Shown here one piece after another: positions 5,069 to 10,392 of a DNA stretch of 37,469 bases. Numbering within the stretch: the stretch's first letter is position 1; every line of letters starts with the position of its first letter. A model generated the notes under the pieces. That model had not been told where the DNA came from. It ran no database searches and saw only the letters and a list, made by a program, of their open reading frames with translations. The position numbers were made by a program, and so were the translations under genes. This DNA is from an uncultured Bdellovibrionales bacterium. GTDB lineage: Bacteria > Bdellovibrionota > Bdellovibrionia > Bdellovibrionales > UBA1609. The stretch covers positions 1 through 37,469 of the forward strand of contig CALGWV010000129.1 in NCBI GenBank assembly GCA_937936325.1, in the 5' to 3' direction.

Positions 5069-5995
5069 TTATTTTGGAATCCATAAAAATAAAAACCAAA
5101 GCAAATTAGCCCAAAATAAATGAACCAGCTGCATCCAAAGTGGTGCTAATAGAAACAAGTTTAAAAATCCAATGAGGATTCCTAAGAGCCCGACAATGAA
5201 AAGAGATTTGTGAGCGTAGACTTTAATTTGTTTTAAGGCCACGACACCTATGCCCCATACTGTCAATAAAGCAATTATAGGATGAAACACTCGTATTTGT
5301 ATGAGCCAAGATGAGTCTGAAGAAAAGTCCTTGGCAATGCCTTCAGCTAGGCTTTTTGAAGGGTAAAGTGTGTCACCAAGAGCCGTCAGGGCACCAGTCA
5401 CTCCCAAGAGTAAAAACCCAATAAAAGTGATCCAATAAATGAACCCAGGTTTGTAGTTGATCTTTTTTGTCCATGACCAATTCATAAAATGATCTTTACC
5501 CATCTCTAAGGACAATTGTGAAATGAGTCTCACCAAAGCTCCTGTTAAAGCCAAAGTATTTACAAGATGCATGACCATGGACCACGCCCGTTCTGTTGAG
5601 GGGTTGTCTGCAACAAGACCAAATAGTACAAGCCTGGCTCCAATCAGTGCCTCAGTAGTGGTAAAAAAGAGAACAAGAAGACTTAGGTTTCGGGCTCTTT
5701 GGGAGAACTCAGATCTAAACAAAACAATAACAAAACCCAAAATCAAGATGCCGTAAAGCCCAGAGGTCGCCCGGTGAAAATATTCAATCAGTGTAGGCCA
5801 ACTCGAAGTCGACGGAAAAAACTCCCCATGGCAACTCGGCCAATGCCGGCCACACCCATCCCCAGACCCAGAGGCCCGAACCAAGGCTCCCCAAACAATC
5901 ACAAACCAAGTATAAATCAAAAGCCAACTCCACCGTCTTAGGTGCCAGTCTCCTTTTGAGGATGTGCTGCGTAATAATGTGTTCTGTGTACTCAT
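5069..5995 (-). CDS. ctaA: Heme A synthase (COX15/CtaA family)
   Basis: Inner-membrane enzyme oxidising the C8 methyl of heme O to the formyl group of heme A for aa3-type oxidases. 308 residues with about eight membrane helices in two similar halves. The family landmarks are in order: VRASGSGDGCGRHWPSCHG with the paired cysteines near residues 48 and 55, EYFHRATSG (first heme-ligand histidine), MVMHLVNT, then RVFHP and QLVHLFWANLLW in the second half, giving the four conserved histidines. No cytochrome-oxidase or ctaB gene is in the window, so it stands alone. There is no clear Shine-Dalgarno before the ATG. About 370 bases upstream on the same strand lies a terminator-ended small transcript, so it may have its own promoter or depend on read-through. 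Confidence 0.93.
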   Translation of the reverse strand: MSTQNTLLRSTSSKGDWHLRRWSWLLIYTWFVIVWGALVRASGSGDGCGRHWPSCHGEFFPSTSSWPTLIEYFHRATSGLYGILILGFVIVLFRSEFSQRARNLSLLVLFFTTTEALIGARLVLFGLVADNPSTERAWSMVMHLVNTLALTGALVRLISQLSLEMGKDHFMNWSWTKKINYKPGFIYWITFIGFLLLGVTGALTALGDTLYPSKSLAEGIAKDFSSDSSWLIQIRVFHPIIALLTVWGIGVVALKQIKVYAHKSLFIVGLLGILIGFLNLFLLAPLWMQLVHLFWANLLWFLFLWIPK

Positions 5996-6360
5996 AGTAT
6001 GGGGTTATAACATATGCGAGACTAAAATGAAAAAATTTCATATAGTTAACAATCGAGATAACTGCTGTTCTTAAGAAACTTAAATAAGCAAACTAAAAAG
6101 GTCGCTGTGTTTGATAATTTCAAACTAAAATTAACTCAGCTTTTATGGGTGGTCCAAGTCTCGATGCTCCCGGCTTATGGGGCATCAGAAAAAAATTCTG
6201 CTCCTTAGATAGGTGAAGGGAGTCAAATCCATGTTTTTAAACGCTGCATAGAGTTTGCAACTCTAGTCTATGAAATCCATTAAGGGATTCCCCAAACAGG
6301 CCCTTAGTTTCTTAAAAAAATGAATATTTTTGCGATGTCTCCTTTTTTATTAAAATCGAT

Positions 6361-6386
6361 AAAAAAAGGCCCCCGAAAGGGAGCCT
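6361..6386 (-). terminator. Rho-independent terminator of the small minus-strand unit
   Basis: Read on the minus strand: AGGCTCCC, a TTTC loop, GGGGGCCT (one mismatch), then seven T. It is a standard terminator placed 27 bases after the stop of the 13-codon ORF, and it should also limit transcription from upstream reaching ctaA. Confidence 0.8.
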
Positions 6387-6394
6387 AGAATCTG

Positions 6395-6464
6395 ATCACC
6401 CTAAAGGGAGTATTACCCGTTTAGGGTGATGCGCATTTCGTATGAATTATTCATGGGCATCACC
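6395..6464 (-). promoter_or_regulatory. Two mutually exclusive hairpins over the small ORF
   Basis: The segment GGTGATGC (plus 6425-6432) is complementary to GCATCACC at 6457-6464, which overlaps the ribosome-binding site. Most of the same segment also belongs to an 11-bp perfect stem with 6395-6405 (ATCACCCTAAA against TTTAGGGTGAT at 6420-6430). The RNA can thus either hide its ribosome site or fold a stem downstream of it, but not both. Inside the first loop ATGAAT and ATTCAT are again complementary. Confidence 0.55.
6413..6454 (-). CDS. 13-residue peptide ORF with strong translation signals
   Basis: Reads MNNSYEMRITLNG then TAA. A full AAGGAGG ribosome site ends eight bases before this ATG (6463-6469). 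Two in-frame upstream codons (ATG at 6460, GTG at 6463) are too close to the ribosome site. A promoter (6492-6520) sits just upstream and a terminator just downstream, so the whole transcript would be about 125 bases. The peptide is not hydrophobic and has no run of one amino acid, so it resembles neither a type I toxin nor a classical amino-acid leader peptide. I do not recognise it. The ORF may exist to let ribosomes control the hairpins rather than to make a product. Confidence 0.5.
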   Translation of the reverse strand: MNNSYEMRITLNG

Positions 6465-6473
6465 TCCTTCTTT

Positions 6474-6520
6474 GCTATATATAGCTCTTTTAGGATAGCA
6501 AAACCGAGGCCATTTCTCAA
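6474..6520 (-). promoter_or_regulatory. Promoter and 5' hairpin of the small unit
   Basis: On the minus strand TTGAGA (6515-6520) and TATCCT (6492-6497) are 17 bases apart, close to the sigma-70 consensus. The expected start falls at about 6485, exactly at the palindrome GCTATATATAGC (6474-6485), which would form a hairpin at the RNA 5' end directly before AAGGAGG. Confidence 0.6.
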
Positions 6521-6886
6521 ATTTAGATTTAAAATTTGGACCAAATGATAATCCTTATACGTCAGATAAAGTAACTGAAATATGAACATATTTTCGGTAT
6601 TTCTATTTTTTAGGAATTTAGATGTCAACAAAACAAAGCTGGGCTCTCAGCAGGCATACCTGAAGAAAGATTTAGGCTGATCTGGAAAAAAAGCTCTTGC
6701 TCTTTTGGCTAGTATAAAGCTATTTGAAGGCACGTGTTATAGTTTTATCTCGTAAAGAAGAAACGATAAGCTGTAACATATTTGCTGATAGGCAGCCTCG
6801 GCTTTAAGTTTATAAAATTTAGATCACAGTGGTGAAAATTCAAAACAAGTTTAAAGTGAGAGAAACTGATAAATTTTGAATTCTTT

Positions 6887-7001
6887 GAGATTTTTAAATT
6901 TAAGGCTCTTTTCCTTAAAGATAAAAACGAGTTCCGCAGCGAAGCGAGGACTGTCTGAGCTTTTTATCTTTAAGGAAAAGAGCCTTAAATTTAAAAACCT
7001 C
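6887..7001. repeat. Long inverted repeat (41-bp arms, 33-base loop) before fumC
   Basis: Arms 6887-6927 and 6961-7001 match in 40 of 41 positions. With a 3-base gap the match continues outward through AAATTTTGA. The arms are AT-rich; the 33-base loop is GC-rich (contains CCGCAGCGAAGCGAGGA). The right arm ends 32 bases before the fumC start, so the structure would lie in the fumC leader or end a transcript before it. No T run follows either side. Confidence 0.9.
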
Positions 7002-7033
7002 AAAATCAAAATTTAAAACAAAAGGACCAAATT

Positions 7034-8416
7034 ATGAGAATTGAGACAGACAGTATGGGTGATGTTGAAATTGCTTCAGACAAAATGTGGGGAGCCCAAA
7101 CTCAAAGATCTTTAGAGAACTTTAAAATCGGATCGGATCTTTTCCCCAGGGAAATGATTCAAGCCTTAGGCATATTAAAAAAATGTGCCGCTGCCACAAA
7201 CGCGGACTTAGGATTGTTAGATCCTGACAAATCTAAAGCGATTCAAGCTGCTGCCACAGAAGTGGCCAAAGGGGATTGGGATGAGCATTTCCCACTAGTC
7301 GTTTGGCAAACTGGGAGTGGAACTCAAACTAATATGAACTCTAATGAAGTCATTGCCAATCGCGCAGCCCAGATTATGGGTTTTGAAATTGGCCAAAAAA
7401 AAGTTCATCCCAATGATGACGTGAACAAGGCTCAATCTTCTAATGATACATTTCCTACGGCCATGCACATTGCCATAGCTCAAAGTTGTCATGAGAGTCT
7501 GTTGCCCAGCCTTGAGCAATTTAAAAAAAGCTTGGATCAAAAAATAAAAGAATTTGAAGGAGTGATTAAAATTGGTCGAACCCATTTTATGGACGCCACC
7601 CCTTTAAGTTTAAGCCAAGAGTTTTCGGGTTACTCCACACAAATGGAGTTAGGAGTTGAGCGGATTAAAGAATCCTTAAAAAATATTTATAAAATTGCAC
7701 TTGGAGGCACGGCCGTGGGAACCGGCTTAAACACCCATCCTGATTTTGCTGTCAAAGCGGCAAAAAAAATTGCCCAAGAAACAGGCCTGCCTTTTATCAC
7801 AGCCCCAAATAAGTTTGAGGCCCTGGCCGCTCATGATGCTTTGGTTCACTTAAGTGGAGTTTTAAAAACTCTAGCCGCAAGTATTTTTAAAATTGCCAAT
7901 GACATTCGTATGCTTGGGAGCGGCCCTAGATCTGGAATTGGTGAACTGATCTTTCCAGCCAATGAGCCCGGCTCAAGCATTATGCCTGGTAAAGTGAATC
8001 CCACCCAAGCCGAAGCTCTTACAATGGTTTGTGCCCAGGTGATGGGCAATGATGTGGCTGTTAATTTTGGCGGGGCCTCGGGTCACTTTGAGCTCAATGT
8101 TTTTAAACCCATGATGCTTTTTAATGTTCTGAATTCAATTCAGCTTTTATCAGAAGGCTTAACGAGCTTTAGAAAAAATTGCCTTGAAGGACTCAAGCCC
8201 AATCATGATCAAATTCAAAAACATCTAGAAAACTCATTGATGCTCGTGACAGCACTAAACCCACACATTGGTTATGACAAAGCTTCGAAGCTAGCTAAAA
8301 AAGCCTATGAAGAAAACACAACTTTAAAACAAGCTGCCGTCTCATTAGGGTATTTAACAGAAAAAGAGTTTGACCAATGGGTAAGGCCCGAAGAAATGAT
8401 CACCCCTAAGGCTTAA
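7034..8416 (+). CDS. fumC: Class II fumarate hydratase
   Basis: Iron-independent fumarase of the TCA cycle (fumarate plus water to L-malate), a cytoplasmic homotetramer. 460 residues, the usual length. All three conserved regions of the fumarase/aspartase superfamily are present: [13 protein letters not shown] at about 94-106, [10 protein letters not shown] at 181-190 with the active-site histidine His184, and the signature [11 protein letters not shown] at 313-323 with the catalytic serine on the mobile loop. The N-terminal [26 protein letters not shown] is typical of FumC rather than aspartase or argininosuccinate lyase. AAAGGA lies about ten bases before the ATG. It stands alone, between two long hairpins at 6887 and 8543. 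Confidence 0.97.
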
Positions 8417-8712: not shown

Positions 8713-9591
8713 ATGAATTTATTTCAAGACATTGTCGAAAGTAAAATGCCTTGGTTTGGCAATAAAGACATCCGCCCTTATGTTTTAGTAAGACCTGAAA
8801 ATCGAACTCGTGATATAAAAAAATTAGCTCCAGTTCCTTCTTTTGCAGAAAAAGAATTTCTTGAGATCAACCCTCTTAAAATGAGCTCAAGCTCTTTTGT
8901 AAATGTGATCATGGATATTGAAGGCCGTGCCTTTGAAAAAAGCTCTATGCCTATGCCGGGCTGGGTGTTTTTTGATTGTGCTGTGATGCCAGGAGTGATC
9001 ACAGGTTTTGCACATAGAAAATCAAGCCTACCTCAAGCGGTTTTAGATGTGATACAAGCCCCTATTGATGACTTGGAGTGGATCCCCCTATCTTTATATA
9101 TTGCCATTCCAACACGAGCCGAGGAGTGGGTGGCTCACAATTTAACTTCAATTAACTCTCATCTTAAAAAAGAAAATAAATTTTATGGACTGGGCTTTAT
9201 GTCTAAGGCCTTTGGCCTTTGGTATGCCGATATTAAAAGACTCTGCGGAATGACTCAGTGGGGGAGCCCCGCTCTGAAGCTTCATTCTCATTTTGGAGAC
9301 TTTGAGATGGTCACTGCTTATACACCCAACCACTCTCATGCCAATACAGTGACCTACCGGTCTCATGTGCGCCATGAGCTTTGGCCGTTGTTTTTTAGCA
9401 AACAACTAGAAGCTGATTTTGAACATCGCTTTAAGCCTACAAAAGATCATATCAACCCCCTAGATGTGAGCGACATGAAGCGCATCCAGGGACTCATTGA
9501 AAAGGGGGAGTCGTTCTTTTTGAGCTCTTATGAGCTGAGAAACTCATCTTTAGACACAGCCTATAGCCTTTATAAAGAAGTCGTCTTATAG
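8713..9591 (+). CDS. Conserved-looking cytoplasmic protein of unknown function
   Basis: 292 residues, family not recognised. No signal peptide or membrane helix; the composition is that of a globular protein. Notable features are histidine- and tryptophan-containing stretches in the second half (LKLHSHFGDFEMVTAYTPNHSHANTVTYRSHVRHELWPLFF, near 196-237), where several His could bind metal, and a single cysteine pair region (DCAVMPG, RLCGM). The ribosome site GGAG lies about nine bases before the ATG. It ends 12 bases before map, so the two are probably co-transcribed, but a link to N-terminal Met removal is only context. A long hairpin directly precedes it. Confidence 0.8.
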   Translation: MNLFQDIVESKMPWFGNKDIRPYVLVRPENRTRDIKKLAPVPSFAEKEFLEINPLKMSSSSFVNVIMDIEGRAFEKSSMPMPGWVFFDCAVMPGVITGFAHRKSSLPQAVLDVIQAPIDDLEWIPLSLYIAIPTRAEEWVAHNLTSINSHLKKENKFYGLGFMSKAFGLWYADIKRLCGMTQWGSPALKLHSHFGDFEMVTAYTPNHSHANTVTYRSHVRHELWPLFFSKQLEADFEHRFKPTKDHINPLDVSDMKRIQGLIEKGESFFLSSYELRNSSLDTAYSLYKEVVL

Positions 9592-9603
9592 TTTTCTTTA
9601 ATT

Positions 9604-10392
9604 ATGAGTCAATATCCAGAAAAACATCTTGAATTTATTCAGGGCATGAAGGCCGCGGGCCGTCTTGCTGCTAAAACCCTTAAACTTGCAGGCCAGCTTG
9701 TGAAAGAAGGTGTGACCACGAACGCGATCAATGATGCTGTTCATGAGTACACTTTAAAAAACAAAGCTCTACCTGCACCTCTGGGTTATAAAGGTTTCCC
9801 CAAGTCTTTGTGCACTTCTGTGAATGAGTGCATTTGCCACGGAGTCCCTGACAATCAGGCTCTCAAAAATGGAGATATCATTAATATTGATGTCACTTCT
9901 ATTTTGGATGGATATTTTGGTGACACCTCAGCCACTTTTTATGTGGGTGAGGTGAGTGATCAGGCCAAGGCTTTAACGGAAGCCGCCTACCATGCTATGC
10001 ACAAGGGGATCGCCCAAGTGATTGGCGGGGGTAGAGTGGGGGACATCGGCTTTGCTGTTCAAAAGTATGTCACACGCCGAGGTTATACTCCTGTGGAAAG
10101 CATAGGCGGCCATGGTATTGGAAGAGTCTTTCACACAGAGCCTTTTGTACCCTCAGTTGGAAAAAAGGGGAAAGGTTTTAAGCTTCAGCCTTGGACCTGC
10201 ATCACTGTTGAACCCATGCTGAATATGACCTCATCGCCCATTCAAGAATTTGCTATCCCTGATTCTGAGATCTTTTATTATAAAGCCGAAGATTCTTGTC
10301 TCTCGGCCCAATTCGAGCATACCCTCTTAATCACAGACACAGGTTACGAAATCATGACTCTAGATGAAGAAGAAGCGGTAAGCTTCAAATAA
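9604..10392 (+). CDS. map: Type I methionine aminopeptidase
   Basis: Removes the initiator methionine from new proteins; a cytoplasmic dinuclear-metal enzyme with the pita-bread fold. 262 residues, as in the E. coli type. The metal ligands and active-site residues are all present: His79 (ICHGVPD), Asp96 (INIDVT), Asp107 (GDTSATF), His170 (GGHGIG), Glu203 (TVEPML) and Glu238 (QFEHTLL). His177 (VFHTEP) corresponds to the substrate-binding histidine. There is no zinc-finger N-terminal extension. The start lacks a visible Shine-Dalgarno (TTTCTTTAATTATG), so translation may be coupled to the gene ending 12 bases upstream. Confidence 0.96.
   Translation: MSQYPEKHLEFIQGMKAAGRLAAKTLKLAGQLVKEGVTTNAINDAVHEYTLKNKALPAPLGYKGFPKSLCTSVNECICHGVPDNQALKNGDIINIDVTSILDGYFGDTSATFYVGEVSDQAKALTEAAYHAMHKGIAQVIGGGRVGDIGFAVQKYVTRRGYTPVESIGGHGIGRVFHTEPFVPSVGKKGKGFKLQPWTCITVEPMLNMTSSPIQEFAIPDSEIFYYKAEDSCLSAQFEHTLLITDTGYEIMTLDEEEAVSFK

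Follow-up and report, generated by a model that had tools for sequence, protein, structure and literature searches.

Parts and Folding of the Minus-Strand Unit

The window (the whole stretch of 37,469 nucleotides of DNA that was analyzed) contains on its minus strand, at positions 6361–6520, a unit composed of a promoter, a 5′ hairpin, a Shine-Dalgarno (SD) sequence, a micro-ORF, alternative hairpins and a terminator, with ctaA on the same strand ~370 nt downstream. The preliminary description of this DNA had proposed a compact small-transcript unit at this place, and our analyses confirmed that the unit is real. What lifts it above chance is the recurrence of the entire architecture in relatives.

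The promoter is sigma70-like (6520–6492), with TTGAGA at 6520–6515, a 17-nt spacer, TATCCT at 6497–6492 and a TG upstream that makes an extended -10. The boxes are where they had been placed and match at nine of 12 positions, a score that is not rare by chance: a consensus scan gave three promoter-like sites in 1.2 kb versus 3.5 expected. The -10 boxes found 5′ of the 5′ hairpin in relatives are similar (TATACT, TATCCT and TGCTATCTT). At the expected transcript start there is a perfect palindrome, GCTATATATAGC (6485–6474), that forms the 5′ hairpin.

The AAGGAGG that had been reported as a full SD is present at 6469–6463, although the SD is in fact longer, with 11 nt (AAGGAGGTGAT, 6469–6459). 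This stretch, AAGGAGGUGAU, is complementary to 11 nt at the 3′ end of the 16S rRNA of the same genome, which was read as AAAGGAGGTGATCCAGCC on another contig. Pattern matching across the genome, the sole basis of this comparison, located the SD 11-mer three times: at the micro-ORF locus, at one site lacking a GCCCATG start, and, in complement, at the 3′ end of the 16S rRNA.

The 13-codon ORF (6454–6413) encodes MNNSYEMRITLNG and ends in TAA, as previously described. Within it, segment B (GCATCACCCTAAA, 6432–6420) is complementary to two other segments, in agreement with the earlier claim that one segment could pair with either the ribosome site or a downstream stem. Segment A (GGTGATGC, 6464–6457), in the SD/start region, can pair with GCATCACC of B (6432–6425), and segment C (TTTAGGGTGAT, 6405–6395), a near-copy of A, can pair with ATCACCCTAAA of B (6430–6420). 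The unit is closed by an intrinsic terminator, AGGCTCCCTTTCGGGGGCCT, whose stem spans 6386–6367 and whose T run extends to 6361, where a terminator had been described. Folding compared with shuffled sequences assigned the B-C hairpin −20.2 kcal/mol (z −5.7), and the energy of the A-B hairpin alone was unexceptional in the window (z −0.9). The whole RNA of ~125 nt had a z of −3.1, and none of 200 shuffles folded as well.

Elsewhere in the window, just upstream of fumC, there is a near-perfect (98%) inverted repeat of 44 nt (6884–7004) whose arms are 33 nt apart and of which no third copy is present in the window. It could be the relic of a small mobile element or a strong bidirectional hairpin.

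Occurrence across Genomes

When 59 related genomes were searched at the DNA level, short matches were obtained, several of them centered on AGGAGGTGATGCCCATG. Reading of their surroundings by eye revealed the identical order of parts in different letters. The raw matches L009, L010 and L022, to query positions 145–170, were matches to the terminator and were left out. The pattern AGGAGGTGRTGCCCATG was found in nine of 141 genomes of the window's order, with one match in each, and the reversed pattern, used as a control, had no match in the same 141 genomes. In a collection of named genomes the pattern matched at least 116 stretches, ordinary gene starts among them. Among the matches listed, many genomes of cyanobacteria and Chloroflexota showed a micro-ORF of 13–25 codons and a segment complementary to the SD/start, and in the Chloroflexota loci C and then a terminator followed directly downstream. 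For 28 such loci, which came from 27 genomes, the pattern occurred once per genome, or twice in the case of two genomes.

End-to-end alignment of the family was unreliable because the loop and the B-C spacing vary. The covariance model that we used, R1, omits part of the loop and consists of 62 columns free of gaps; it served as a search tool rather than as a measured structure. The window, which was absent from the sequences of R1, was scored by it with an E-value of 9.5e-5. In the window's phylum, 14 of 369 genomes had matches at E ≤ 0.01; L186, L188 and L190 looked like members when read, and the weak matches L189, L191 and L192 did not and were discarded. Together, the pattern and R1 matches brought the number of convincing members in the window's relatives, apparently Bdellovibrionota, to 12. 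Matches to R1 were also obtained in 54 of 301 Chloroflexota genomes (the best 30 of the 54 were read) and in 74 of 244 genomes of Cyanobacteria. The element was nearly absent from other phyla. At E ≤ 0.001 there were no matches in two control phyla, reached via Paenibacillus (0/249) and via a Myxococcales genome (0/237). The phylum reached via Dyella had four of 299 at that threshold, all of them inside longer coding frames, and these were discarded. Viral contigs contained 31 matches to the pattern, none of which had the full architecture on reading.

The DNA search, the pattern and the covariance model agreed on the architecture, and the element is mostly single-copy per genome. The shared anatomy comprises a promoter, a 5′ hairpin, an 11-nt match to the anti-SD, GCCCAUG, an ORF of 13–25 codons with B inside it, C and a terminator. 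No library of RNA or protein families contains the element: Rfam 15 matched no family at gathering or relaxed thresholds, and Pfam and NCBIfam had no match to the peptides of at least 20 aa. Literature searches by sequence or peptide found nothing relevant. The copy in one relative (L051) adjoins a gene for an acetyltransferase-like protein (8745–9716, minus strand) in which a long (PS)n run links the two halves.

Reading Frame and Pairings in the Family

The stretch from the AUG to B's GGG measures 14, 17, 20 or 29 nt in most Chloroflexota and in the cyanobacteria, and 22, 25, 28 or 31 nt in the Ardenticatenia-type loci and some of the window's relatives. In each set the length is constant modulo 3, so that indels in this spacing preserve the frame, and the stop codons alternate between TAG and TAA. 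This conservation of the frame favors translation of the micro-ORF. In one Chloroflexota locus (L204) CAG replaces the usual TAG and the micro-ORF extends to 21 codons through C, unlike in its close relatives L206 and L207, which makes this locus a natural test of where the stop lies.

The peptide itself appears to be under weaker constraint. In Cyanobacteria, variation over the last seven codons is mostly at the third position (entropy 0.70 versus 0.29 and 0.30), and the distinct codon changes gave p-values, uncorrected for relatedness, of 0.04 overall and 0.03 when limited to the C-terminus. Coding statistics were weak overall (p 0.03–0.08) and not significant in Chloroflexota. Judged from the sequences, the frame is kept and the peptide sequence only weakly so, with next to no conservation in the window's group. 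Given the poor conservation of the peptide outside cyanobacteria and the weak coding statistics, the product may not be what matters.

The B-C pairing covaries in both Chloroflexota and Cyanobacteria. Compensated changes in Cyanobacteria included C-G, A-U, G-C and U-A at columns 68-185, G-C and A-U at columns 63-190 and 64-189, and A-U and U-A at columns 62-191. When partners were swapped between members, the C of the same locus was a better partner for each B than the C of other members; the B-C trace, uncorrected for relatedness, was 1219 for own partners versus 993.6 ± 29.4 for swapped ones in Chloroflexota, and 1718 versus 1358.6 ± 37.7 in Cyanobacteria. The counts for A-B were mostly one-sided because A, which is tied to the 16S rRNA and to the search pattern, hardly varies. 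Compensated A-B pairs were nevertheless present in R1 matches outside the pattern: CCCUUAUG with CUAAGGG in L190, and GCCUGUG with AGGC in L220 and L221. The stems of the 5′ hairpin also vary among relatives yet stay complementary (GACUU/AAGUC, GACAU/AUGUC, GGCGU/ACGCC and AACGC/GCGUU). Thus, of the conservation in relatives on which the preliminary description had staked its proposal, the pairings and the reading frame were borne out, but the peptide sequence was hardly kept in the window's group.

The cyanobacterial loci (L055–L170) also have a strongly conserved stretch, GGCAGTC-GG-TT-CAACCTGAA-GACCCGCTAGACCGCTC, 100–200 nt 3′ of the ORF. The B-C pairing accounts for its first part only.

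Proposed Function and Relation to Known Systems

With somewhat more confidence than doubt, we read the locus as a gene that stands on its own and yields a short RNA of ~125 nt, probably translated, which is gated by the A/B/C switch and belongs to an old family, very likely including the cyanobacterial RNA ncl0160. Transcription would start at the 5′ hairpin. As B emerged from the polymerase, A-B pairing would form over the SD and start codon and block initiation; transcription of C would then permit B-C to form and release the SD. The freed SD, which matches the 3′ end of the 16S rRNA over an unusual length, could capture a 30S subunit, and the ribosome would translate the 13–25 codons through B, melt B-C and terminate within the B-C hairpin or immediately past it, whereupon the RNA could refold. 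With B closing the gate, C opening it and the ribosome melting B-C, translation would thus wait for the complete RNA, and each ribosome would reset it.

In-silico folding of growing transcripts predicted that SD-AUG accessibility falls from ~0.55 to 0.22–0.33 on the appearance of B in all groups. In the complete RNA, the predicted reopening was clear in cyanobacteria (0.24 to 0.50) and partial in Chloroflexota, and reopening by C was inconsistent in the window's group. It is from this folding that we propose a translational gate that closes during transcription and would open on completion. The presence of a covarying switch and a frame-conserved micro-ORF, mostly single-copy, in Cyanobacteria, Chloroflexota and the window's group implies a conserved function, and the family members include cultivable model organisms.

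What this function might be is a more speculative matter. It is conceivable, though we would not expect it, that the element is a ribosome-state sensor, in which initiating on or translating the micro-ORF matters and the peptide does not. The near-complete complement of the anti-SD would report free 30S subunits, ribosome occupancy would set the exposure of A or C or the lifetime of the RNA, and the RNA would act in trans or by titration. The pattern search, in which no other SD of the genome carried the 11-nt complement, is consistent with such a role, as are the covarying pairings, a peptide that drifts while its frame stays and the lack of a conserved downstream gene. However, the cyanobacterial C-terminus RLCAGAVL shows constraint at the level of the peptide. 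We would extend the idea, with the same reserve, to a new RNA class in three phyla, in which translation of a micro-ORF whose peptide is mostly free would read ribosome availability or termination via the A/B/C switch, itself built on the sequence complementary to the anti-SD, and which would act in trans.

That the RNA is a base-pairing regulatory sRNA with an incidental ORF is unlikely. The element is compact and single-copy with its own promoter and terminator, and its cyanobacterial member was originally catalogued as an sRNA (PMC4734099), but the SD, start, stop and frame are retained across three phyla. We consider it quite improbable that the window's group and the RNAs of Cyanobacteria and Chloroflexota are convergent, with extended SDs and self-complementary micro-ORFs having arisen separately. 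The 16S rRNA dictates AGGAGGUGAU, the peptides differ and the distribution in the window's phylum is patchy; however, the GCCC that precedes the AUG, the 5′ hairpin, B in the ORF, C and the terminator, none of which the 16S rRNA dictates, recur jointly, and a pattern built only from the window's relatives found other phyla. The earlier suggestion of a cis-acting leader, an attenuator for the downstream gene, here ctaA, is scarcely tenable despite the attenuator-like uORF, mutually exclusive hairpins and terminator, the position of ctaA and the phhB gene that in Cyanobacteria often lies a few hundred bases beyond the element, an arrangement that we read as synteny, because the downstream genes vary in identity, the first downstream ORF of at least 120 aa is convergent in nine of 23 homologues, and no antiterminator overlapping the terminator stem is apparent. 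The element stands as an independent unit, and ctaA is merely a neighbor.

The element shares with leader-peptide attenuators, such as those of trp and erm, a short ORF, hairpins that exclude one another and a terminator. Unlike them, it is without a conserved or even same-strand downstream gene; among the homologues, no functionally linked gene on the same strand was found. Type I toxin mRNAs (hok, aapA) have transient 5′ structures, and early pairing in the element could similarly hide the SD during transcription, with refolding later. Unlike those of the toxins, the element's peptides are variable and, by inspection, hydrophilic. No antisense RNA gene was evident in a consensus scan within 5900–7100, which detected no plus-strand promoter-like site over the ORF.

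The closest known system is ncl0160, an sRNA of Synechocystis 6803 and Nostoc 7120 with 83 cyanobacterial homologues, an RBS and a peptide of 23–25 aa, which is expressed and was judged likely to be translated (Brenes-Alvarez et al. 2016, PMC4734099). A literature search found no further paper mentioning ncl0160. It is a stand-alone transcript, wide in cyanobacteria, whose 23–25-aa ORF has mostly ATG starts and TAA or TAG stops, and the cyanobacterial loci found here fit that account. Given the agreement in peptide length, in start and stop codons and in breadth, we treated these loci as ncl0160; this branch is almost certainly ncl0160, matched through its published description. The existence of the cyanobacterial RNA is therefore already known. 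That paper describes neither the A/B/C switch nor members outside cyanobacteria; what we add is the switch, the presence of the element in two further phyla (Chloroflexota and that of the window's group) and its independence from neighboring genes. The window's element differs from ncl0160 in that its ORF has 13 codons, its peptide is unrelated, with the conserved ..SSK.MG...CAGAVL absent from MNNSYEMRITLNG, and its RNA is ~125 nt versus ~250 nt. Like the family, it has a promoter and terminator of its own, independence from neighbors, an extended SD, GCCCAUG, a micro-ORF and a B complementary to both A and C. Together, these features indicate that the window's element probably works like ncl0160 and is homologous to it, without its peptide.
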